Assembly (NCBI RefSeq): GCF_013087525.1
Contig: NZ_JABFCS010000001.1
Span: forward strand, 2,232,001-2,296,000
Direction: 5' to 3'
Source: Ramlibacter montanisoli
Lineage (GTDB): Bacteria; Pseudomonadota; Gammaproteobacteria; Burkholderiales; Burkholderiaceae_C
DNA: 64,000 nucleotides
A program made the translations under genes and the position numbers. Under the pieces are notes generated by a model. It was given only the letters and a program-made list of their open reading frames with translations. It did no database searches and was not told where the DNA came from. Shown here piece by piece: positions 13,631 to 40,034 of this stretch; position 1 is the first letter of the stretch; the number at the start of each line of letters is the position of its first letter.

Positions 13631-14468
13631 TCAAACGGCGGCTGCGCGCCCCCACTCGGCGATCTCGGCCGCGAGCTTCGCGACGTCGTCGGATTGGCCA
13701 AGGTGCAGTGTCGCCGGGCACCGGTACACCACGTTGTCAATCACGCCGTCGATTGCGAGCTGGTCCTTGCGGCTCCTGTTGCGAGGGCGGAGGACGAACA
13801 ACCCGAGGGCGCGCTTCTGACGGTACCGCGCCGCACATTCCAAGTCCAACACGCTGTCCATCAGGTGGGTGCGCAGTGTGTTCGCGTTGTAGTAGGCGCT
13901 CCTGATCGTTCCGACACCATTCCGCGGCTGAAGCGGGATCACCATGGTGCGTGGGCCACGGTCGGTATTCACAATCACCTGCGGGTGTGTTCGCCAGCAG
14001 CTCGAAGTCGAGCCCGATCTGATCCTTCACGGCATTGGCGACGCGAGTTTGCGCGACGTCGTCCGGGAGCTCTTCTCGCATTGCTGGATCGCGGTGCGGC
14101 AGCGCCACCGTGACTTGGTCGGCGAAGGTGTTCTCCACCGCCTGATCCAGAGTGGAGTTGAAGTACGGCGCTGGGTCGTCAAAGACAATCTGCGCCGAGG
14201 GCGACGGGGCGCCGCGCTCCGCGGCCTCAAGCGCGGCCTGTGCGAGCATGAGCACATTGACGGACTGCTCCCCGTACAGGCACTGCAACCGCGCCGGCTC
14301 TGTCACAACCTTTGCTTTCCGCCGGCCCTTCGGGTCGACAGCGCAAACTCCCACATTGATCTGCTCGCCAGTGAATATGTCCGGCGTGCAGCGAATCACA
14401 AAAATCACGCCAGCGGGCTCCAGCCGCGCACTTGGAGGAGTCTTGAGCAGGTCAAGCCAGCTGTTCAT
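13631..14468 (-). CDS. DUF3037-type protein paired with a HipA-like kinase, frameshifted
   Basis: The protein starts MNSWLDLLKTPPSARLEPAG and carries the block FVIRCTPDIFTGEQINVGV, which matches the opening strand of DUF3037-type proteins (conserved 'Y/R-xPD-xxxGExxNVGV'). Near 13983 one extra C shifts the frame. The C-terminal part (VIVNTDRGPRTMVIPLQPRN through AKLAAEIAEWGRAAAV) is in another frame. The joined length is about 278 residues. The start codon overlaps the stop of the upstream kinase gene as ATGA, so the two are translationally coupled. DUF3037 genes are known to sit beside HipA-like kinase genes; the function is not established. Confidence 0.65.
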
Positions 14469-15376
14469 GCAACCAACTTTAAACGCTCGCGGAACCACTC
14501 CGCAATCGGAATGCATCGCCACCAGACAGCATCCATCGCAGCAGCAGCCTCGACGGAAGAGCCACACTCCAGCGCTACGCGAAGCTCATTCTGCGTTTCG
14601 AAGAACTTGTCCGCCACGAGCTGTGCGCTCACGTAAAGCGCGCTGCGCAGCTCCGGCCTCAGAGAGTCGATAGGCACGAGATTCTCAATGAGCTTGCTTG
14701 GCGCCCACTGCTGCGCGAACCACATGTCCCCAAGCTGCCAGTTTCCGCCGCCAAGGATCTCCCCATGGTCGATGGCCACGAAGCTGCTCTTCCCCGTCAG
14801 CACCAGGTTCCCGATGTTGCGGTCCCCGTTTTTCAGCAGCTGGTCCGCGGCAATCAGAAGGGGCAAGGCCGGGCACGTGAAGAGTCGCTGGACGAGCTTT
14901 GCATGCTGCTGCGGGTCCAAGTAGTTGTAGATCTGCTTCGGCGTTCCTTCAAACGTCGGGCGCGGCTCGCAGCTGACGAAGGCCCAGGCCCAAGGCTTGG
15001 CGGGGAGTACGTCGATCGGCGCGGGCATCACAGCGACCTCAGGCTGAGGGACCCCGAGTGCAGACATCACCACGTATCCGAACACCTCGTTGAACATGCC
15101 GCGTGGCGTGTTGCCTGGAAAGTGCTTCACGTATGCGCGCATCGCAAGACCCAGCGGCGAGCGAACCTCGGCCAAGTGAGTAGCGGCGCTAACACCGCCT
15201 CCTTCCTGCCGGATTGCTCGAACGTATTGGGCCGCCGTCCACACCTGCGGGCGCTTGAGCGTCGGTGTGCTGGCGCTGGTCACCCCTGCACCCTTGCATC
15301 GATGCACATAGCCGAAAGCCTCCCCTTCACGCCGGCACCGCCGGTCAACTGTTGTGTTCAGAGTGAATCGTGCCAT
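14465..15376 (-). CDS. HipA-like protein kinase
   Basis: A 303-residue protein from the ATG at 15376 (a TTG at 15391 is the alternative). The HipA-type catalytic loop is visible as ADQLLKNGDRNIGNLVL (catalytic D and N), followed by SFVAIDHGEILGG, whose IDHG corresponds to the metal-binding aspartate. Upstream lies RGMFNEVFGYVVMSALGV, a helix typical of the N-lobe. HipA kinases phosphorylate translation factors or tRNA synthetases and act as toxins. This shorter variant resembles the HipA_2 type found next to DUF3037 genes, as here. A LexA-type box lies about 20 bases upstream of the start, which suggests DNA-damage control. Confidence 0.72.
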   Translation of the reverse strand: MARFTLNTTVDRRCRREGEAFGYVHRCKGAGVTSASTPTLKRPQVWTAAQYVRAIRQEGGGVSAATHLAEVRSPLGLAMRAYVKHFPGNTPRGMFNEVFGYVVMSALGVPQPEVAVMPAPIDVLPAKPWAWAFVSCEPRPTFEGTPKQIYNYLDPQQHAKLVQRLFTCPALPLLIAADQLLKNGDRNIGNLVLTGKSSFVAIDHGEILGGGNWQLGDMWFAQQWAPSKLIENLVPIDSLRPELRSALYVSAQLVADKFFETQNELRVALECGSSVEAAAAMDAVWWRCIPIAEWFRERLKLVA

Positions 15377-15396
15377 AGCGCCACGCCGCAAGGCTA

Positions 15397-15412
15397 CTGT
15401 ATGCTTTCACAG
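15397..15412. promoter_or_regulatory. LexA-like operator (CTGT-N8-ACAG) between divergent genes
   Basis: CTGT ATGCTTTC ACAG matches the betaproteobacterial/enterobacterial SOS box exactly. It is extended to TACTGT...ACAGTA on both sides. It lies 21 bases upstream of the HipA-like kinase ATG (minus strand) and one base before the ATG of the small plus-strand frame at 15414. A palindrome with eight fixed bases is expected about once by chance in 64 kb, so position is the main argument. The second copy in the window controls imuA. Confidence 0.6.
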
Positions 15413-15413
15413 T

Positions 15414-15686
15414 ATGCGGGTCAAGGTGTTGCTTCGGCGTGAAGGAGGGGCTTTCAGGCCACCCTACGGCCAAGGTCACGCCGCGACGGGCGATCTCCAC
15501 CTCACCCACCGCACCGCCGACGGCCGCCGAATCCCCCTTCTCCAACTTCTCGGCGCGAATCAACAATGGCCCTCCCTTTTCGATCCTCGCCTTGTCTCTC
15601 TCTCTGCCCGCCAACTCGGATTCATCGGCTTCGAACGGCACGGCCAAGCGTGGGTGCTACAGCAGTGGGACTGCGAAGTCCTGTAG
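15414..15686 (+). CDS. Small hypothetical protein divergent to the HipA-like kinase
   Basis: A 90-residue frame starting MRVKVLLRREGGAFRPPYGQ and ending WVLQQWDCEVL. I recognise no domain, but composition (RIPLLQLL, SLFDPRLVSLS, GFIGFERHG) is protein-like rather than that of an antisense shadow. The nearest ATG is directly after the LexA-like box, leaving no room for a normal leader, so it would be leaderless or start further in. Moderate evidence only. Confidence 0.45.
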   Translation: MRVKVLLRREGGAFRPPYGQGHAATGDLHLTHRTADGRRIPLLQLLGANQQWPSLFDPRLVSLSARQLGFIGFERHGQAWVLQQWDCEVL

Positions 15687-16175: not shown

Positions 16176-16808
16176 TTATGGCTCGTCGTCCCACACGATG
16201 GCATGGGTAGAAATCACCGCCGCGATCTCTGAGGCCGAGAGTTTCTTATGCTGAAGAAGCGCTTCGGCGAGACTTACCACCTTTGGCCAGAGATTCAAGA
16301 CCATAGAGTCGACCACCTTGAACAACTGTTCCGGCGAGTACTGCCCTGGAACCACACCGTCTCCAAAGACTCGCCCTAGGTGCTCGTGTAGCTCCTGTCG
16401 GTCTCTCCCCGACCTCAGGTGCTCACTGTCGGGAATATCCAGCCCTTCGGACTCGTAGAACCCTCTCTCAGCAGCCTCTCCCGCCAGCAGAACGAGCGCA
16501 GTAGCCCTGAAATGCTTCCAGTCGCCAGGCCCCATAAAATCCGGCTCGTAGGGCCGGTAACGCAAGCCGTCAAACGATTGGCCTCCGTCATCGCCAATTC
16601 GAACGCTGCTTCCGGGCGCACCTAGGGCGTGGGCAACCACTTGGTGACCAGCCTCGTGGTATGCCAAAGCACGTAGAAGATCGTCTTGAGCGTTGTCCCT
16701 GCCTGGCCGATCACGATCTGCACACCCGTCTTCCCTCAAGTCCTCACTCGGTCTCGATGTGCATCTTCGACTCGCCGCTCGTTCTAGAAATGACCGATTC
16801 AAACTCAA
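16176..16808 (-). CDS. HEXXH peptidase, M41/FtsH-protease-like, without an AAA domain
   Basis: The core is LAYHEAGHQVVAHALG, the zinc-binding HEXXH motif in the HEAGH form typical of M41 (FtsH) peptidases. It is followed by LLAGEAAERGFYES, which matches the helix after the active site in that family. No ATPase or membrane segment is present. The start is uncertain: a TTG at 16808 overlaps the stop of the upstream gene as TTGA and has AGGGGG nearby. The first about 35 residues are unlike protein, so a later start is possible. The product is about 210 residues or shorter. The coupling to a nuclease-like gene is the notable feature. Confidence 0.65.
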   Translation of the reverse strand: MSLNRSFLERAASRRCTSRPSEDLREDGCADRDRPGRDNAQDDLLRALAYHEAGHQVVAHALGAPGSSVRIGDDGGQSFDGLRYRPYEPDFMGPGDWKHFRATALVLLAGEAAERGFYESEGLDIPDSEHLRSGRDRQELHEHLGRVFGDGVVPGQYSPEQLFKVVDSMVLNLWPKVVSLAEALLQHKKLSASEIAAVISTHAIVWDDEP

Positions 16809-18043
16809 TTGCGCCCCCTTGTGAAAGCCTCGAGGCGAGGTCTGAATACGTTCACAAACCGATTGGTCATAGTGAGTAGGTAATCTAGAGCCCGTACCCG
16901 CTCGCCCTCGGATGACCATTCCCCCAAGGGCGCTTTCACTCCCACTGAATACACCTTGCCGTTGTATGACCACGCGACGGAGTCCTCGATTGCGATCTCA
17001 ATCGCCTCTTTGTCGCCTTGGAGATACTCGAACGCGCTTGCAGCGTCGGCGTACGTGCTCGCCCACGTGAGGTAAACGCCGACCACACCCGATGATCGGG
17101 CAACGTAGGCAGAAATCCAGCTCTCAGCTCCCGAAGGCGGCATGGGAAAGTAGGCATTTGTGCTTCGCGGAACCGTCTTGGGAATTGGCTGGCGTGTGTC
17201 ATCCAGCTTCAGCCGCCGCATGTACTCGGCCCAAAATGACTGTAACCACCGCTGGTAATCCGTGAGCTGCGTCTGATCCAACCCTCCTTCGGTCTGTGCA
17301 GCTGCCATGAGATCACCAGCGGCAAGGTCAATCGCCAATTCCCCACCAGCACGGTCTACCGGCACGACGACGACGCGCCTCATGACCTCTGTCTTGGCGA
17401 GCACGCGGGGCTGCAACAGAACATCGCCGTCGCCTACGTCGTAGGCGGCCACCTCAATCAACCCAAATGTGAAGCGCAGACTCCCGTACCTCTCAAGAAA
17501 GGCAACCAGCGCCTCCGCCCCCGTGCGAATACCGTCGCCGACGACAAGCAGGACGATGTCTCCGGTGCGCAGGTTGTGGTTGATGCCATCTACGAATCGA
17601 GCTTCGTCCAGATCCGGATAACGCCCCCTTGCGACGTCCAGCAGGTATTTGGGGCCGCGTCCGGTAGCGCGGGCGACCTCCCGCGCAAGATCCTCATACG
17701 TCCACGTGGTGAGTTCCTTGGCGTAATCGAGAATCTGTGCGATTACTTCACGGCGGGCTTCAGGATTTCGCCAGAGTTTGGTCTCCACCAAGATGATCTG
17801 TCCCGTGCCCGTGACATACAGGATGTCGGCGGGACCGGCGACGGTGTTCAGCTCCATGCACACCGGCACAGGCTCGGAGACATTGGGAGCAATCTCGCGA
17901 AGGGGAAGCGCAAGGGGATGCTCGAACAACTGCTGCTGAAGCCACTTTTCAGAGAAAGCCGAGTGGGAGGCGGTGAGCGGAATACGAGGCAGAACGTTCG
18001 CTGCCCCGTTGCGCACTAGGATCGGGCTGGTGAAGGCGTTCAA
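16805..18043 (-). CDS. PD-(D/E)XK-like nuclease-family protein of the island
   Basis: A 412-residue protein. The start is a TTG at 18043, chosen because a perfect AAGGAGG lies nine bases upstream. In the N-terminal third, ADILYVTGTGQIILVETKLW has the D...(V)ExK spacing of PD-(D/E)XK nucleases. NPEARREVIAQILDYAKEL follows, a helix with the QxxxYA pattern common in that fold. The middle region (TGDIVLLVVGDGIRTGAEAL) and the C-terminal half (YSVGVKAPLGEW...) are not recognised. The stop overlaps the start of the HEXXH peptidase gene. Such nuclease-fold proteins are frequent in defence islands, but the specific role is unknown. Confidence 0.65.
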   Translation of the reverse strand: MNAFTSPILVRNGAANVLPRIPLTASHSAFSEKWLQQQLFEHPLALPLREIAPNVSEPVPVCMELNTVAGPADILYVTGTGQIILVETKLWRNPEARREVIAQILDYAKELTTWTYEDLAREVARATGRGPKYLLDVARGRYPDLDEARFVDGINHNLRTGDIVLLVVGDGIRTGAEALVAFLERYGSLRFTFGLIEVAAYDVGDGDVLLQPRVLAKTEVMRRVVVVPVDRAGGELAIDLAAGDLMAAAQTEGGLDQTQLTDYQRWLQSFWAEYMRRLKLDDTRQPIPKTVPRSTNAYFPMPPSGAESWISAYVARSSGVVGVYLTWASTYADAASAFEYLQGDKEAIEIAIEDSVAWSYNGKVYSVGVKAPLGEWSSEGERVRALDYLLTMTNRFVNVFRPRLEAFTRGRN

Positions 18044-18139
18044 GGCTTCGATCCTCCTTCGAGGGGTGCAAGACCTGAGCAGCGTACACAAGACTGCGCC
18101 CTGTTGTCCACAAATGTAGATTCACTTAGCATCTTCTGC

Positions 18140-18969
18140 ATGGACGATCCGGCTCGCGAGTACAACACACATACCCGCTCTGCAGCCTGGAAACCGCTTT
18201 GCGCCCTGTTCACTGGGAAGGTCGATGAGTTCACGAGGCGTCATGCGCATCAACGGTTCTCAGAGAAGGCCCACATCGGCTTAGCCATGTGGAACTGGAT
18301 GCTGCAAGAGGGATATGTCGCCCGGAACTGCTTCCGGACGCGGAGCGGATCCACTTCCGGCCCAAGAAGGAGAAGGGTGGCTTGCCTCTGTGGCGCTTGG
18401 CTTTCAAGGCTACCGTGAGGAACACCCCCGGCGTCGACGCACTTTTCGAGGGCAAACGCAAAGGACCGACTCCCCAGTACGCACGCCTATCGGATGCTGG
18501 CGTTGTTCCGGTCGACCCTGCACATGTTGTGCCGCAGCCTGAAGAACCCGTCTTGCGGTCAAATGCGGCGCCGGTTAGCCGCTACGCTGCGCGCGAAGAG
18601 TTCGTGGCCCAAGACGACGGACTGGAGTGGCTGTACATCTACAGCACCGCCCGAGAGATCGATAACTTTGTAGGCCATGGAATCGAACCACTTGTGAAAA
18701 TCGGCTGCAGTCGGAACCACTACACACTGCGCATATCCCAACAGGCCGGGTCAACCGCGGCAGGAACGACTCTCGTTTGCCTGTACGCCTACAGACTTCG
18801 CAACGCTCATCAGGCCGAGTCTTCCGTGCACCACGCCCTGAAGTTGCAGGGAAAGCACGTCAAGGATGCTCCGGGTATCGAATGGTTCGAAGTCAGGCCG
18901 CAATCGGCGCACAAGCTCGTGGAGGCAATCTGCGGTAGCCTCACGCGCACGCCGAGGGACTCCAAATAG
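18140..18969 (+). CDS. GIY-YIG-type (T5orf172/MUG113-like) protein, frameshifted
   Basis: Starts at the ATG at 18140 (MDDPAREYNTHTRSAAWKPL). Near 18322 a C is missing, after which the frame continues PELLPDAERIHFRPKKEKGG. The C-terminal domain reads LEWLYIYSTAREID, then LVKIGCSRNHYTLRISQQ, then ALKLQGKHVKDAPGIEWFEV. This is the Y-Y...KIG-x(S/R)...R...EWF order of T5orf172/MUG113-type GIY-YIG nucleases. The joined protein is about 276 residues. It is divergent to the PD-(D/E)XK gene, with only about 100 bases between starts, so the two may share a regulatory region. Confidence 0.65.
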
Positions 18970-19041
18970 TGAGCTGCATGAGTGTTTCATCGTGCGCGAT
19001 CTACTCGGTGCGAAATAAACACGGCACGTCGCCGCCCTCAT

Positions 19042-19977
19042 TCACGCGCCAACCTGGTCGTACGCCTTCTGAATGTACGGCTTCAGCTGCTCCAGGTCTG
19101 CGTCACTCTTCACCGTAACTTCCAGATCGCCGGTTCCGAAATGACCGATGTCACGCATATCCCGTGAAATCCCAGGCGGACCTGGTTCCTTTCCTGGGTC
19201 CAGCTTCAGAAAGAACAGGATCTTTTGTTTCTGAACCTCCATGCACACGATGTTCTGAGTGGTTCGATAAGCGACGTAGAGCTTCTTCGGCGCTTCCTCA
19301 ATGGCAGGGTCCAGTGTGAGGATGAATTCCTGCGCTGCGAGAGCAAGGCTCTTGATGGCGTCCGGCCTCCCATCAAGATGCTGGTCAAAAGTCCAACCTC
19401 CTTGTGCCTTCGTGAGTGCTGCCTTCTTACCGGCTTCGACCATCACTGGATTCTTGTCGCCTAGCGCTGCCTCCTGAAGGGAGACTTGACCACCACGGAA
19501 TGCTTCTTCGAACAAGATTGCCTCATTTGAATATAGGCGATAGGTCCAAAGCTCTATGTTGGCACCCATGGCTTGCACGGCATGCTGATCGAACTTCTTG
19601 TACGAGGGTGCGAGACAAATGACGCGGATCTCGCTCCAGTCTATGGACGCCTTCCCGCCCAATGCCTTCTGCGCGGCGAGCTCGAAGTCTCCATGATGGT
19701 CCTTGAGCCAACTCAAGTAATACAACCCCTGGAGCACTACCTCACCTGAAGCAACCTTCTTGTATTCGATGATGACCGGATTACCGTCTTCCGAGAGACC
19801 TAAGGTGTCGATTCGGCCGGCATGAACGGCCCCAGTCTTGAATTCCGAAGCGACGAAAGAGCAGTTGAAAATCGCCTTTAGATTCTTCTCCACGAAGGAC
19901 TGGAGAACCTTCTCCGAAGGGAATTCGACTTGGCTTACCGGGACAGCTTCGTGCCCCTTGATCTCGAACAGCGGCAT
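19042..19977 (-). CDS. DUF5655-type protein with an N-terminal nuclease-like domain
   Basis: A 311-residue intact protein (MPLFEIKGHEAVPVSQVEFP) with AGGAGGGGTGC before the ATG. The N-terminal domain has HAGRIDTLGLSEDGNPVIIE followed by YKK, the D...ExK pattern of a PD-(D/E)XK fold, then QGLYYLSWLKDH. The C-terminal part (EAPKKLYVAYRTTQNIV, FLKLDPGKE, GHFGTGDLEVTV) resembles DUF5655. Proteins of this architecture are widespread, often in mobile or defence regions, and have no settled function. The gene stands alone on the minus strand, and its base composition is visibly less GC-rich than the core genes. Confidence 0.7.
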   Translation of the reverse strand: MPLFEIKGHEAVPVSQVEFPSEKVLQSFVEKNLKAIFNCSFVASEFKTGAVHAGRIDTLGLSEDGNPVIIEYKKVASGEVVLQGLYYLSWLKDHHGDFELAAQKALGGKASIDWSEIRVICLAPSYKKFDQHAVQAMGANIELWTYRLYSNEAILFEEAFRGGQVSLQEAALGDKNPVMVEAGKKAALTKAQGGWTFDQHLDGRPDAIKSLALAAQEFILTLDPAIEEAPKKLYVAYRTTQNIVCMEVQKQKILFFLKLDPGKEPGPPGISRDMRDIGHFGTGDLEVTVKSDADLEQLKPYIQKAYDQVGA

Positions 19978-20050
19978 GCACCCCTCCTATTGGAGTCATC
20001 TTCTCACACCGGATCGCTGCGGTTTCGTAGGCAACTATTCAGGCTGTCCG

Positions 20051-20959
20051 CTAGTCGCTGTCATCGAGTTCCTCCCGTCGCCTGGTGCTTTCGTCATAGG
20101 CAGCATTGTGCTGCTCGAGATAATGCCACTGCTCGGCGGATGGCTCCTTGGCCAGGTCGTGTAATGGTCCGAGGAGAAGGCGCTCTCCGACGGTGATTAG
20201 CGGGGAAACGCGAATCGTGCCCTCTCGGTCGAATGAGACTAGATGCTTGTCAAACAGCGCATCGAGGTTCGCGGACAACAGCAAACCGTTGTTTGGGTCA
20301 AGCCGCTGTTCGTCGGTGGCGCTCCTCCACGGCAGAACGTGCGAGGCTCGAAGAGCCTGGCGCAGGCCCAAGCCTGTTGCGGCGCAGCGATTCTTGAAAA
20401 CCCTCTCCAGATCCCGTCGGAATTTGCCTTGACCGACCCGAGCCAGTACCAGCTGGTCCCGCGTCGTCGCTGGAATGTCGGCGCGGCCACGAATCTGGTC
20501 CAGATCCTGTTCGACTTCGGACGTACTCGAATCGGCATCGCCTCCGAAGATCTGTTCATCGATGCGTGCTGCCGTTGCGAGCAGCAGTTCTAAGGCAATA
20601 TCCACATCGCACACCCGCAGATACCATGCATCCGGTTCCTTCCGAACGAAGAAAGCGTCCGCGTCGCATCCGTGCCGGCGGCTGAACATTTCCAAATCAA
20701 AACCGGTCGGACAAGCGTTAGCCGCTTCGGGAGTTCCAGCGGCGAATCGGTAACCCAGCACATGGCCGCTGTTCCACATTCGGTCCTTCATATAGCCGAC
20801 GTACACGCCGCGCCACTCCACCCGTAGCGTCCAACGCCTCCCCGCGCGCCCTCGATCACTTGTTCCGATTGTGAAACCTTCGTTCTCAAGCAGGTTGCAG
20901 AAGGCAGCGACCTGGGGTGGGAGTGGTGTGTGTCCAGCGTAGTTTGTGAGGTCGACCAT
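20051..20959 (-). CDS. HNH endonuclease-family protein
   Basis: A 302-residue protein. The C-terminal third holds the HNH core in its restriction-enzyme-like form: RCAATGLGLRQALRASHVLP (the H of SHVLPW), then RLDPNNGLLLSANLDALFD (N...H/D positions) and KHLVSFDREGTI. The N-terminal region (MVDLTNYAGHTPLPPQVAAF to about residue 120) is not recognised; it may be a DNA- or modification-sensing domain. It lies between the DUF5655 and uracil-glycosylase-like genes, all on the same strand but not overlapping. A role in restricting foreign DNA is plausible by family but not shown. Confidence 0.75.
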   Translation of the reverse strand: MVDLTNYAGHTPLPPQVAAFCNLLENEGFTIGTSDRGRAGRRWTLRVEWRGVYVGYMKDRMWNSGHVLGYRFAAGTPEAANACPTGFDLEMFSRRHGCDADAFFVRKEPDAWYLRVCDVDIALELLLATAARIDEQIFGGDADSSTSEVEQDLDQIRGRADIPATTRDQLVLARVGQGKFRRDLERVFKNRCAATGLGLRQALRASHVLPWRSATDEQRLDPNNGLLLSANLDALFDKHLVSFDREGTIRVSPLITVGERLLLGPLHDLAKEPSAEQWHYLEQHNAAYDESTRRREELDDSD

Positions 20960-21857: not shown

Positions 21858-23807
21858 TCACTGGCGCCGATGGCTTTTCTTCAGGCGCAAGGCGTCGCGG
21901 ACGGCATCCATTCCCGCTTTGACCGAGAAACGTGCAACTGCGGGGAGTCCATAAGAGAGAGCCGCCACGTACTCCGCCAGCTTTAAGAGTTGGGCACCCT
22001 TGTCATACCTGGACTCCACCAGTGCGTTACTGCGCGAGTGTCCCATCAGGTCCGACTTAACAGGACGAGGCACGTCGGCCACACCTAAGGCGGTGGCAAA
22101 GTTGTGCCGAAAGGAATGGAAGGTCTTGCGGCCATTGCGCTCCATCTTGAGTCGGTTTCCCAGGAAGCGCTCGTTGAACCAGCTCCCCGCAGCCTTGCCA
22201 TAGCCCTTGCGCTTGTCGTGCCCGCAACTCGGGAACAGTCTGACTTCGCCAGCCTCCCGCAGGGCCGCCGCGTACTGAAGCAACCCGAGCTCGATGAGGT
22301 GTTGGTGAAGTGGGACAATTCGCTCAGCGTTCACAGTCTTGAGGGATTTGTCCTCTGCGGCGTTCGCGTCGTCGTCTGCTGCCACTTTGTCATCAGCGTT
22401 CAGGTTGAAGTCCACATACCAGACGCCACCCTCCTCCACCAGATCACTCAAGTACAGCTGTGCAAGCTCGTTGAGTCGGCCGCCGGTGTAGAGTGCCAAG
22501 AGGGGCAACCAGTAGTAGTGCGGCCGGTATGAGTGGAAGCGGCCCTCAGGAGTGGGAGTGCCAGCCCCCTTTAAGAACCACTCAGCGCCGAAGATTTGGG
22601 CGAGATCAGCGTCGGAGAAGGCATCGCGCTGGTCCTGCGCCTTTGACTTACCGCCGGTGGATTTCTTCTGAATCTCCATGCCAAGGCCAATGGCGGGGTT
22701 CATCGAGAGGTGGGTCTCTTTCACCGCCCAACTGAAGACTTCGGAGATCCCATCCATGAAGCGACGATGCGAGTCCGGGGTGATCCGGGCCAGGGCATGC
22801 GTATCCGCGAGGTCAATCAGCTCGCGGAACCCAGCCTCGGGGCACTTGAATCGCCGGCGCACTGCGCCTCGGTTGCTGGGGAGCTTGCCCAGCTCGTCGG
22901 AGAATCGACGCACCAGCGGCCTCGTGATCTCCGACATCAGGGGGTCGCCCATCAGCTCTTGGAACGCCCGGCACTGATCCATCTTGCGTTCTGTTTGGTC
23001 TTCCTTCCAGTCGCCCTTCTTGCGTTTCAGGAACTCCACGACGAGGTCGGAGAAACGCATGCCCGCAGGCGCAGCCTCTGAGAGAACCGCGTTGGCAGGG
23101 GTCGCATCAGGCCTGAGCTGTGAAGCCAAGGAGTCCCGCAGACTCTCAACTGCTTCTCGTTCGACTAGCAGCTCCGAGGACGTGACGAGTTGCCCCGGCA
23201 GGTCCACAACGAAGCCACGTTCCTGCGACGGCCAAGCCAGGAACTGGCACACCCGCGCAGCACCTTCGGCTGCTTGCAGTGCCTCCTCGCGATGACGGAT
23301 CCGCGCGCGACCTCCGAAGACCGTCGGGACCCCGTCTCGCGGGGGAAGAACCATCGACGCCCGCCCGAACTCGTCGTGCTCGTACTCGACGCTGTCGTAG
23401 ATCGAATCGAGCGCCCAACCCTGCCAGTCCCGGGCGTCGACGTAGAACCGCGCACCGCGATCTGCAAGGCGCGCGGCCAGGTCGGCGGGAGGAGCGGCAC
23501 CCAGCTCCGCCGCGGCCTTCTCCAAACCGATGAAACCGTTCCCCAGAAGGGAGATCGACCCTGCCTTGATCTTCGCCGCGTCCATAGCCTGTACCGCTTC
23601 AATCGCCCGATGCCAATGCGCCGCGATCTCCGCGGCGACGATCTTCGCCAACCGGAGGTCCCGACAGCCTGTGGAGCGGTGGATCTCGCCCTTGCCCACC
23701 GCGTGCTTCAGACGCGCCGGGACGCAGAGACGGACAAAGTAGGTGCCGCTGGCGCGGCGGTAGAGATACTGAGCACCCATTTCGTAGCCTGCTTTCGTAG
23801 CAGACAT
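21858..23807 (-). CDS. Site-specific tyrosine recombinase (integrase)
   Basis: A 649-residue integrase, long for the family, starting MSATKAGYEMGAQYLYRRAS at 23807 (a further in-frame ATG lies at 23780). The C-terminal catalytic residues are visible: R in LYTGGRLNELAQL, HxxR in HSFRHNFAT, H in LMGHSRSN and the nucleophile Y in VESRYDKG. The N-terminal half has the arm-type and core-binding regions (SDLVVEFLKRKKGDWKEDQT). The gene is intact. Its start lies about 60 bases from the 3' end of tRNA-Gly(CCC), the standard arrangement for an element integrated in a tRNA gene. It would integrate and excise the region to the left. Confidence 0.9.
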   Translation of the reverse strand: MSATKAGYEMGAQYLYRRASGTYFVRLCVPARLKHAVGKGEIHRSTGCRDLRLAKIVAAEIAAHWHRAIEAVQAMDAAKIKAGSISLLGNGFIGLEKAAAELGAAPPADLAARLADRGARFYVDARDWQGWALDSIYDSVEYEHDEFGRASMVLPPRDGVPTVFGGRARIRHREEALQAAEGAARVCQFLAWPSQERGFVVDLPGQLVTSSELLVEREAVESLRDSLASQLRPDATPANAVLSEAAPAGMRFSDLVVEFLKRKKGDWKEDQTERKMDQCRAFQELMGDPLMSEITRPLVRRFSDELGKLPSNRGAVRRRFKCPEAGFRELIDLADTHALARITPDSHRRFMDGISEVFSWAVKETHLSMNPAIGLGMEIQKKSTGGKSKAQDQRDAFSDADLAQIFGAEWFLKGAGTPTPEGRFHSYRPHYYWLPLLALYTGGRLNELAQLYLSDLVEEGGVWYVDFNLNADDKVAADDDANAAEDKSLKTVNAERIVPLHQHLIELGLLQYAAALREAGEVRLFPSCGHDKRKGYGKAAGSWFNERFLGNRLKMERNGRKTFHSFRHNFATALGVADVPRPVKSDLMGHSRSNALVESRYDKGAQLLKLAEYVAALSYGLPAVARFSVKAGMDAVRDALRLKKSHRRQ

Positions 23808-23864
23808 GCGAGTCGGTGCGTCGTCCCACAGAAACAGCAAGCATATCAAGCACTTGCAGAACTA

Positions 23865-23891
23865 TGGAGCGGGCGATGGGAATCGAACCCA
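23865..23891. other. Putative integration site (attachment site) in the tRNA 3' end
   Basis: The 3' part of tRNA-Gly, from the T-arm to CCA, faces the integrase gene. Integrases of this type usually recombine within the tRNA 3' end and leave a direct repeat of it at the far end of the element. I found no second copy within the window, so the other boundary should lie left of position 1. Inference from arrangement. Confidence 0.55.
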
Positions 23892-23938
23892 CGTCTTGAG
23901 CTTGGGAAGCTCAGGTCCTGCCATTGAACGACGCCCGC
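23865..23938 (-). tRNA. tRNA-Gly (CCC anticodon)
   Basis: The minus-strand sequence folds into a cloverleaf: acceptor GCGGGCG/CGCCCGC, D-arm GTTCAATGGCAGGAC, anticodon stem TGAGC/GCTCA with loop TTCCCAA (anticodon CCC), and T-arm GTGGGTTCGATTCCCAT. The discriminator is T, followed by an encoded CCA. It closely resembles known bacterial tRNA-Gly(CCC). It marks the right boundary of the island. Confidence 0.95.
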
Positions 23939-27083: not shown

Positions 27084-27829
27084 ACACTCCGACCAACGAG
27101 AGCGGCGCGGCCGTGGTGCTGCGCGACGTGCACAAGAGCTTCGGCGCGCACAAGGTGCTGGCCGGCGTCAACCTGGAGGCGCAGCGCGGCCAGGTCACGG
27201 CCATCATCGGCCGCAGCGGCTCGGGCAAGAGCACGGCGCTGCGCTGCATCGACCGGCTGGAGACCGTCGACAGCGGCGAGATCACGGTGTGCGGCCGGCG
27301 CGTGGACGACCCGCACGTGGACCTCAAGGCCCTGCGCCTGGACGTGGGCATCGTCTTCCAGAGCTACAACCTGTTCCCGCACCTGAACATCGAAGAGAAC
27401 ATCATGCTGGCGCCGCGCGCCGCCAAGGGCCTGGACAAGGCAGCCGCGCGCGAACTCGCGCACAGCGTGCTGGCCAAGGTGGGCCTGCGCGAGAAAGCGA
27501 CCGCGTATCCGGAGCAGTTGTCCGGCGGCCAGCAGCAGCGCGTGGCGATCGCCCGCTCGCTGGCGATGCAGCCCAAGGTGATGCTGTTCGACGAAGTGAC
27601 CTCGGCGCTCGACCCCGAGCTCACCGGCGAGGTGCTCAAGGTGATCGAGGAACTGGCCGCCGGCGGCATGACCATGGTGATGGTCACGCACGAGATGGCC
27701 TTCGCGCGCCGCGTGGCCGACCAGGTGGTGTTCATGAACGCCGGCCGCGTGTGGGAACAAGGCAGCGCCGACATCCTCACCAACCCCACGACACCCGAAT
27801 TGAAGCAGTTCGTGCAGAGCGAGCTGTAG
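27080..27829 (+). CDS. ABC transporter ATP-binding protein, polar-amino-acid type
   Basis: A 249-residue ATPase (MNTPTNESGAAVVLRDVHKS). It has Walker A GRSGSGKS, the Q-loop VFQSYNLFPH, signature LSGGQQQR, Walker B VMLFDEVTSALD and the H-loop VTHEMAFAR. The closest relatives by pattern are GlnQ/HisP-type subunits. The start ATG overlaps the permease stop (ATGA). It powers import of the ligand captured by the binding protein encoded next. Confidence 0.92.
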   Translation: MNTPTNESGAAVVLRDVHKSFGAHKVLAGVNLEAQRGQVTAIIGRSGSGKSTALRCIDRLETVDSGEITVCGRRVDDPHVDLKALRLDVGIVFQSYNLFPHLNIEENIMLAPRAAKGLDKAAARELAHSVLAKVGLREKATAYPEQLSGGQQQRVAIARSLAMQPKVMLFDEVTSALDPELTGEVLKVIEELAAGGMTMVMVTHEMAFARRVADQVVFMNAGRVWEQGSADILTNPTTPELKQFVQSEL

Positions 27830-27865
27830 ACCCGTTTTTCAACCAGAGAAGACCCAGGAGACACC

Positions 27866-28651
27866 ATGACCCTGTTCCGTTCCGCCCTCGTGGCGACCTG
27901 CCTGACCGTCGCCGCGATGGGCGCCCATGCCGACCTGCTGGACGACATCATGAAGTCCAAGAAGATCCGCATCTCCACCGACTTCGCGATCCCGCCCGCC
28001 GGCATGATGGATGCCAACATGCAGCCCAGCGGCTCCGACGTGGAGACGGCCAAGCTGCTGGCCAAGGACTGGGGCCTGGAGATCGTCTGGGTGCCCACCA
28101 CCGGCGCCACCCGCATCCCCAACGTCAACACCGGCAAGGCCGACATCATCATCTCCACGCTGTCCGTCACGCCGGAGCGCGCCAAGGTGATCGACTTCTC
28201 CAAGCCCTACGCCGTGCTGCAGTCGGTCGTGGGCGCGCCCAAGGCCACCGCGATCAAGGACTGGGCCGACCTGAAGGGCAAGAGCGTCACCGTCACCCGC
28301 GGCACCACGCAGGACACCGAGCTCAGCGCCATGGCCAACGACAAGGGCTTCAAGGTCGTGCGCTACGACGACGACGCGACCATGGTGACGGCGGGCGCCA
28401 CCGGCCAGGCCGAAGCGGTCGCCACCTCGGTCGCGCTGGTCAACGCCATCTCCAGCAAGAGCCCGAACAAGCCCTGGGAGCCGAAGTTCGTGATCCGCAA
28501 CTTCGACCTGGCCATCGGCACCAAGCAGGGCGAGCCGCGCCTGCAGGCCAAGCTGAACGAGTGGGTCACCGCCAACCTGAAGAACGGCAAGCTGAGCGAC
28601 ATCTACAAGAAGTACTACGGCGTGGCCCTGCCCGCCTCCATGACCAACTGA
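27866..28651 (+). CDS. Periplasmic solute-binding protein of the ABC importer
   Basis: A 261-residue SBP_bac_3-type protein. The signal peptide is MTLFRSALVATCLTVAAMGA with cleavage before DLLDD. The domain opens KKIRISTDFAIPPAGMMDA and has IISTLSVTPERAKVIDFSKP, the hallmark of the amino-acid-binding class. Later, LKGKSVTVTRGTTQDTEL is typical. A ribosome-binding site (AGGAGA) precedes the ATG. The ligand could be an amino acid or, given the sugar-metabolism genes that follow, an unusual sugar-derived or hydroxy-acid compound. The residues do not decide between them. Confidence 0.88.
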   Translation: MTLFRSALVATCLTVAAMGAHADLLDDIMKSKKIRISTDFAIPPAGMMDANMQPSGSDVETAKLLAKDWGLEIVWVPTTGATRIPNVNTGKADIIISTLSVTPERAKVIDFSKPYAVLQSVVGAPKATAIKDWADLKGKSVTVTRGTTQDTELSAMANDKGFKVVRYDDDATMVTAGATGQAEAVATSVALVNAISSKSPNKPWEPKFVIRNFDLAIGTKQGEPRLQAKLNEWVTANLKNGKLSDIYKKYYGVALPASMTN

Positions 28652-28669
28652 TCGCGACCAAGGAAGCAC

Positions 28670-29119
28670 ATGAAGATCGTCATCGGCTCGGACCACGCGG
28701 GCTGGGCACTCAAGGGGGCGGTGATCGCCCACGTCAAGGCGCTCGGCCACGAGGTGATCGACGTCGGCAGCCACGACCCGAAGCCGGTCGACTTCCCGGA
28801 CATCGCGGGGGCGCTGACCTCCAAGGTGCTGTCCGGCGAGGCGCAGCGCGGCATCATGGTCTGCGGCACCGGCGTCGGCGCCTCGATCGCGGCCAACAAG
28901 GTGCGCGGCATCCGCGCCGCGGTCTGCCACGACATCCACTCGGCGCACCAGAGCGTGGAGCACGACGACGTGAACGTCATGTGCATCGGCGCCCAGATCG
29001 TCGGCCCCTGGCTGGCCAACGACCTGGTCGGCTCCTTCCTGGATGCGAAGTTCGTCGACAACGAGGACCACCGCCGCCGCGTCGCCAAGCTCCACGAGAT
29101 GGACAGCGCGTTCAAGTGA
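28670..29119 (+). CDS. rpiB: RpiB/LacAB-family sugar-phosphate isomerase
   Basis: A 149-residue enzyme of the ribose-5-phosphate isomerase B family. Characteristic are MKIVIGSDHAGWALKG at the start, the active-site cysteine segment MVCGTGVGASIAANKV and AAVCHDIHSAHQSVEHDDVN. Some members act on other sugar phosphates (allose, galactose, erythrulose). Placed between an ABC importer and a sugar kinase, it is probably a pathway-specific isomerase and not the housekeeping RpiB. Its stop overlaps the GTG of the kinase gene (GTGA). Confidence 0.85.
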   Translation: MKIVIGSDHAGWALKGAVIAHVKALGHEVIDVGSHDPKPVDFPDIAGALTSKVLSGEAQRGIMVCGTGVGASIAANKVRGIRAAVCHDIHSAHQSVEHDDVNVMCIGAQIVGPWLANDLVGSFLDAKFVDNEDHRRRVAKLHEMDSAFK

Positions 29120-30053
29120 AGACGGACGCCGTGCGCCGCAAGGTCGTCGTCTTCGGCAGCCTGAACATGGACCTGGTGGCCCGTGTCCCGCGCATGCCGG
29201 AGCCGGGCGAGACCCTCATGGGCCACGGCTTCCTCTCCAACCCGGGCGGCAAGGGCGCGAACCAGGCGGTCGCCTGCGCGCGCCAGGGCGCGCGGGTGGA
29301 GATGGTGGGGCGCGTCGGCAACGACGGCTTCGCCGCGGAATTGCGCGCGGCCCTGGCCGCGCAAGGCGTGGCGGCCGACGGCGTCGCCACCGCCGAGGGA
29401 CAAGGCACCGGCGTCGCCATGATCATGGTCGACGACGGTGCGCAGAACTGCATCGCGGTGATCCCCGGGGCGAATGCCGCGGTCGGCATCGCCGATGCGC
29501 AAGCCTTGCGGCCGCGGTTGCAGGATGCGTCCTTGCTGCTGCTGCAACTGGAAGTGCCCATGGAGGCCGTGGTGCGGGCCGCGGAGGGGCGCGCGCGGCC
29601 GGCTGCGCGGTGCTGCTCAATCCGGCCCCGGCACGGGAGCTGCCGGCGGCACTCTGGCCGCTGGTCGACATCCTGGTGGTGAACGAAACCGAGGCCCGCA
29701 TGCTGGCCGGGCTGCCGGCCGTCAGTCTGGACAACGCGGCCCATGCGGCCGCGGCACTGTGCCGTCGAGGTCCGCGCGAGGTGCTGGTCACGCTGGGCGA
29801 GCACGGCGTGACCTGGGTGTCGCCGGAGGGATCGCAGCACTTCGACGCCGTGCGGGTGCAGCCCGTGGACACGACCGCGGCGGGCGACACCTTCATCGGC
29901 GCGCTCGCGGCCTTGCTGGTGGAAGGCCGGGCCATGCCCGAAGCCGTGCGCCACGCGATCAAGGCGGCCGCGATCTGCGTGACGCGGCCCGGGGCGCAGG
30001 CGGCGATGCCTTCGCGCGAAGAGGTCGATCGATTCGGCACGACGCCACCCTGA
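29116..30053 (+). CDS. Ribokinase-family sugar kinase, frameshifted
   Basis: A PfkB-fold carbohydrate kinase. The N-terminal signature is RKVVVFGSLNMDLVARVPRM followed by LSNPGGKGANQAVACARQ, as in ribokinase. The frame shifts near 29598, in a GCGCGC/GGCCGG run. The C-terminal half continues AVLLNPAPARELP, LVDILVVNETEARMLAG and the catalytic signature DTTAAGDTFIGAL (catalytic D in AAGD). The total is about 312 residues. It would phosphorylate the imported or isomerised sugar with ATP. It is the last gene of the operon, with about 115 bases to the TRAP operon. Confidence 0.87.
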
Positions 30054-40018: not shown

Positions 40019-40034
40019 CTGTCTGTTTATACAG
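40019..40034. promoter_or_regulatory. LexA operator of the imuA-imuB-dnaE2 cassette
   Basis: CTGT CTGTTTAT ACAG, an exact CTGT-N8-ACAG SOS box, lies 15 bases upstream of the imuA ATG on the minus strand. Cassettes of this type are LexA-controlled in many proteobacteria. The same sequence also lies about 110 bases before the divergent ABC exporter gene. Confidence 0.88.

Follow-up and report, generated by a model that had tools for sequence, protein, structure and literature searches.

The question raised by this locus in Ramlibacter montanisoli is which gene is served by the LexA-type box at 15397-15412 of the window (the whole stretch of 64,000 nucleotides that was analysed). The initial annotation had placed a gene pair, encoding a HipA-like kinase and a DUF3037 protein, under this box, and the exact CTGT-N8-ACAG box, contained in the 20-mer TACTGTATGCTTTCACAGTA, and the kinase reading frame with its NGDRN loop are both present. 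A gene for a protein of 90 aa, absent from that annotation, starts with an ATG at 15414 on the plus strand. The box lies between this gene and the divergent kinase gene on the minus strand, and a single base separates its end from the start codon of the 90-aa gene. Judged from sequence comparisons, the box probably serves the 90-aa gene as its LexA operator; the kinase/DUF3037 pair would at best be an additional, predicted target. The features concerned are:

13631-13984, minus strand: second piece of the DUF3037 gene, in another frame (residues 162-276 of an intact relative, 66% identity)
13983-14468, minus strand: first piece of the DUF3037 gene (residues 1-162 of the intact relative, 67% identity)
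14465-15376, minus strand: HipA-like kinase ORF from the ATG at 15376, HipAD/DS-6-like (NGDRN loop, homologs, structure model)
14465-15283, minus strand: the kinase from its likelier start, the GTG at 15283 (homolog starts, an AAGGG-containing stretch upstream, unstructured residues 1-29)
15314-15334, no strand: one arm of a 21-nt inverted repeat around the box, 90% complementary, with the other arm at 15435-15455
15396-15424, minus strand, toward the kinase: promoter-like TTGACC-17-TACAGT with its -10 covered by the box (consensus match only)
15397-15412, no strand: LexA-type box CTGTATGCTTTCACAG, an exact CTGT-N8-ACAG (sequence scan; placement kept in 10 closer relatives)
15414-15686, plus strand: 90-aa gene with a predicted all-beta fold, of a family without a name (32 homologs; 161 with a wider profile)
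40019-40034, no strand: the other exact box in the window, upstream of an imuA-like ORF (ATG 40004, minus strand) at a distance of 14 bases

The CTGT-N8-ACAG motif is most likely the LexA site of this genome, because 21 such sites were found in the whole genome versus 5 for the reversed control, and because boxes of the exact type are also located before genes for a UvrD-like helicase and a tyrosine integrase and before the lexA gene itself, whose product contains the LexA_DNA_bind and S24 domains. The tyrosine integrase gene (L006, G000:C1:836367), which has its box close upstream, presumably encodes an integrase of the integron type; integron integrases are under LexA control. The 90-aa gene would resemble such an integrase gene, also present in this genome, in being a gene of mobile DNA behind a LexA box, whereas the product of the latter is a recombinase. 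Taken by itself, the number of boxes in the window is unremarkable, with 2 observed against 0.71 expected and at least 2 in 19 of 100 shuffles. The distance from the second box to the imuA-like ORF was measured as 14 bases and not the 15 bases first reported; the name ImuA comes from the initial annotation, and a Pfam search with this ORF gave no match.

The 90-aa protein belongs to a family of 32 homologs, aligned from the ATG at 15414, of which 18 are exactly 90 aa long. A wider profile gave 161 matches, and some named Variovorax proteins are among the best 120 of these; 9 of the 60 genus genomes contain a match to the protein. Searches of Pfam, NCBIfam, PHROGs, PADLOC and PDB sequences gave no match. 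The structure model is confident (mean pLDDT 88.8) and all-beta with six strands, and a fold search returned weak matches only, none of them clear.

The box was assigned to the 90-aa gene because the same placement was found in all 10 closer relatives. In the 11 closer copies, which consist of the window, five genomes of the same genus (G097, G310, G311, G312, and G328) and five phage contigs, exactly one base stands between box and ATG in every case, the box being exact in 8 and having one mismatch in 3. The G328 copy, which has internal stops, is counted among the 11; the broken copy in G354 (L040) was set apart before counting and has a one-mismatch box without the one-base distance to an ATG, the next GTG overlapping the box as judged by eye. 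Among 12 more distant relatives, which were counted apart from the 11 and two of which come from one genome (G308), an exact box near the start was found in 3, a one-mismatch box in 3 and none in 6. When all 3856 ATGs in 160 kb of DNA (the window and genus DNA) were inspected, an exact box at the one-base distance was found for 4; with up to one mismatch allowed, the number is 6, all of which are starts of the family, against 0 of the 3850 others.

This placement can also be followed in homologs annotated with an N-terminal extension, 8 of 13 of which contain the peptide encoded by the box, then T or C, then ATG; P0093 and P0119 are too short for the whole peptide, and P0110, P0159, and P0187 are without it. 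This count was made on the best 120 of the 161 proteins, of which 109 were aligned from the first columns and 96 start at the first family residue. The box-plus-start pattern also matches frames outside the family, namely at 3 of 6 loci in the first pattern search and at 2 of 5 (L068 and L077) in the second. All five phage contigs carry the family by protein search; three of them had been found earlier by a DNA pattern containing the box, and the two that had not resemble one of the three. The phage sample is a small one of 5 contigs, with three of the five proteins alike.

The pairing of the kinase with DUF3037 was already known, as the initial annotation had said. According to the available text of two reports, HipAD/DS-6/PDC-M66 is an anti-phage toxin-antitoxin pair, which is toxic when DUF3037 is deleted (PMC12548924, PMC13092281). 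The pair in the window is similar in its kinase, which is HipA-like by fold and catalytic residues, in the overlapping downstream DUF3037 gene, and in its defence-like neighbours. It differs in having a DUF3037 gene divided over two frames and in that a LexA-type box lies nearby, a feature without mention in the available text of those reports (PMC12548924, PMC13092281). The kinase residues D185, R186, N190, and D203 are invariant in 52 aligned rows, and the structure model is confident and kinase-like, with residues 1-29 unstructured; its PDB matches include PI3K-type kinases and CtkA (E below 1e-4, TM 0.35-0.52). The DUF3037 gene was identified by Pfam (28 bits, cut-off 22.6) and overlaps the kinase gene by ATGA at 14465-14468, as claimed for it, but it occupies two frames rather than a single open one. 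Errors of assembly (indels) are a plausible cause of this break, since the gene for a PfkB-type kinase in the window is likewise split over two frames (27289-29682 and 29043-30053). The split of the PfkB gene may itself be a sign of assembly indels or of decay.

In a PADLOC search the DUF3037 part gave a weak PDC-M66B match (E 8e-4), and the kinase gave none. DUF3037 follows the kinase in 11 of the 15 kinase loci tested, one of which is the query's own. At E 1e-10 the kinase was found in 1 of the 60 genomes of the genus and in 5 of the 399 of the order, counts that include the window's own genome. An intact pair is present in the phage contig L016, after a short frame and about 0.7 kb from another gene, which were judged by eye to be HNH-like and repressor-like, respectively. 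Near homologs of the kinase in L016 and L048 start immediately after another reading frame.

The start of the kinase bears directly on its distance from the box, which was initially given as 21 bases. The box does precede an ATG of the kinase ORF, at 15376, but by 20 bases, and the GTG at 15283, which is 113 bases from the box, is the likelier start, because 47 of the 51 aligned kinase homologs (drawn from 79 found) begin at or after window residue 32 and because residues 1-29 are unstructured in the model. The three nearest homologs keep the 31-codon leader, with 53-71% identity. Through the inverted repeat around the box, this leader contains, on the opposite strand, a near copy of sequence from the early part of the 90-aa gene.

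The absence of the box from closely related loci, named beforehand as evidence against LexA control of the pair, is the outcome observed for the kinase. Of the 19 other kinase loci, which show about 25-69% identity, none has an exact box within 1.5 kb upstream and 2 have a one-mismatch site (L016 at -51 and L021 at -244); the three nearest kinase homologs, which are outside this set, may share a box.

A function of the box in both directions is nevertheless possible, although we would put its chances somewhat below even. LexA would then likely repress both the 90-aa gene and the HipAD-type pair, and DNA damage would raise the level of an anti-phage kinase. Consistent with this, the promoter-like site TTGACC-17-TACAGT, which matches 9 of 12 consensus positions, is directed toward the kinase, the box containing its -10, and 1 such site was found against 0.1 expected; of the 10 other family loci, 3 (L035, L036, and L074) have weaker divergent promoter-like sites (8/12). 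Divergent SRAP genes occupy the same spot in phages, and the leader is kept in the three close kinase homologs. On the other hand, the other 19 kinase loci are without an exact box, 113 bases separate the box from the likelier start of the kinase, and the kinase-facing promoter-like site is a consensus match only. In the direction of the 90-aa gene of the window, no -35/-10 pair with at least 8 of 12 matches was found.

The neighbourhood of the family in phages gives some indication of what its members may do. A gene for SRAP (PF02586) is located near the 90-aa gene in all five phage contigs; in four of them (L071/L076, L073, L074, and L075) it is divergent across the box, and in the remaining contig (L067/L072) it is about 1.5 kb away. 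In the gene lists of the neighbourhoods of the bacterial copies, read as lists, no SRAP was recognised. SRAP/YedK, the SOS-response-associated peptidase, is SOS-linked and has been reported in prophages (PMC3765255); no match to SRAP was found for the 90-aa protein, which is not named in the available text of that report. Because the box sits between the 90-aa gene and the SRAP gene in 4 of the 5 phage contigs, the 90-aa protein may act as an effector of the SOS response that mobile elements carry, and its neighbours suggest a role in damage tolerance, most likely as a partner of SRAP. A second relative, which begins with MRVKM and is 115 aa long in L071 and L075, was observed downstream of the box-headed gene in three phage contigs:

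L071, 3855-4199: second relative
L073, about 1682-2029: second relative
L075, 3516-3863: second relative

Variovorax proteins of this MRVKM type are among the wider-profile matches listed.

Alternatively, and with a probability clearly below even, the 90-aa protein may be an SOS-induced antirepressor or a modulator of the SOS response of mobile elements, comparable to Tum, GfoA/GftA, or DinI, rather than a partner of SRAP in tolerating damage. Such small phage proteins under LexA control are known from the accessible part of the literature (PMC3121763), and the 90-aa protein is like them in being small, in its location on mobile DNA, including phage contigs, and in having a LexA-type box at its promoter. 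However, neither a sequence match nor a clear fold match to them was found, and the 90-aa gene differs from theirs in the distance of one base from box to start codon in the closer copies and in its regular phage neighbour, which is SRAP.

An assignment of the box to the kinase/DUF3037 pair alone, with the 90-aa ORF as an incidental frame, which corresponds to the initial annotation, is in our view very unlikely. The kinase ORF does have an ATG 20 bases from the box and the promoter-like site points at the kinase, but that ATG is unsupported by the 47 homologs with later starts and by the model, and the 90-aa ORF represents a conserved family whose closer copies all have the box at a fixed distance from the start. 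A LexA-type operator, as originally proposed, is well supported, whereas the kinase as its target is not; among the closer copies it is the 90-aa gene that the box accompanies, in 11 of 11. A chance match is close to negligible: two boxes in 64 kb would be within chance by count, but the placement is fixed in 11 of 11 closer copies, and none of the 3850 other ATGs is preceded at that distance by a box, even with one mismatch allowed.

The position of the putative operator of the 90-aa gene suggests how repression might work. In 4 of 11 loci (L036, L072, L073, and L076) the box contains a hexamer resembling a -10 element, whose end is 8 bases from the ATG, and one in L034 ends 6 bases before it, although the LexA consensus is itself AT-rich at that spot. 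Since the hexamers end 6-8 bases before the ATG, a transcript started from them would begin at about the start codon, and the message of the 90-aa gene may therefore be leaderless. LexA bound to the box at 15397-15412 would cover the -10 region together with the transcription start, and the same box in phages would act between the 90-aa gene and the divergent SRAP gene. We tentatively propose, as a possibility that is rather less likely than not to hold in all its parts, that the family comprises so far undescribed SOS genes of mobile elements, in which the order of operator, one base, and ATG would combine an operator, a -10 element, and a leaderless start in one, facing SRAP in phages and, at this locus, placing a HipAD kinase under a bidirectional switch as well.

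In the window, the 90-aa gene is surrounded by genes of defence-like type, with the HipAD-type anti-phage pair opposite it; further defence-like genes at 16805-20959 encode a PDC-S18-like protein with DUF5655, a PDC-S11-like protein, and an HNH restriction-like endonuclease. Mobile or defence neighbours were recognised by Pfam for 2 of 6 other bacterial copies, with a resolvase and a restriction methylase near the G311 copy and a zeta toxin and a DnaB helicase near the G328 copy. The proposed integration of the element at a tRNA gene agrees with the integrase gene at 21858-23849, which adjoins tRNA-Gly at 23865-23938, but no repeat of the tRNA 3' end that would mark the far end of the island was found within the window. 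The available portion of the open-licence literature yielded no description of LexA control of HipAD or of the 90-aa family.

These results shift the likely SOS switch of this locus from an anti-phage kinase of a known kind to a family of small proteins that is without a name and occurs in bacterial genomes and in phages. As read from the DNA, damage would most likely turn on the 90-aa protein and only possibly the kinase. The fixed distance from box to ATG makes close members of the family easy to find and predicts that their expression would be leaderless and gated by LexA. If the switch also acts toward the kinase, DNA damage would be wired to abortive phage defence.
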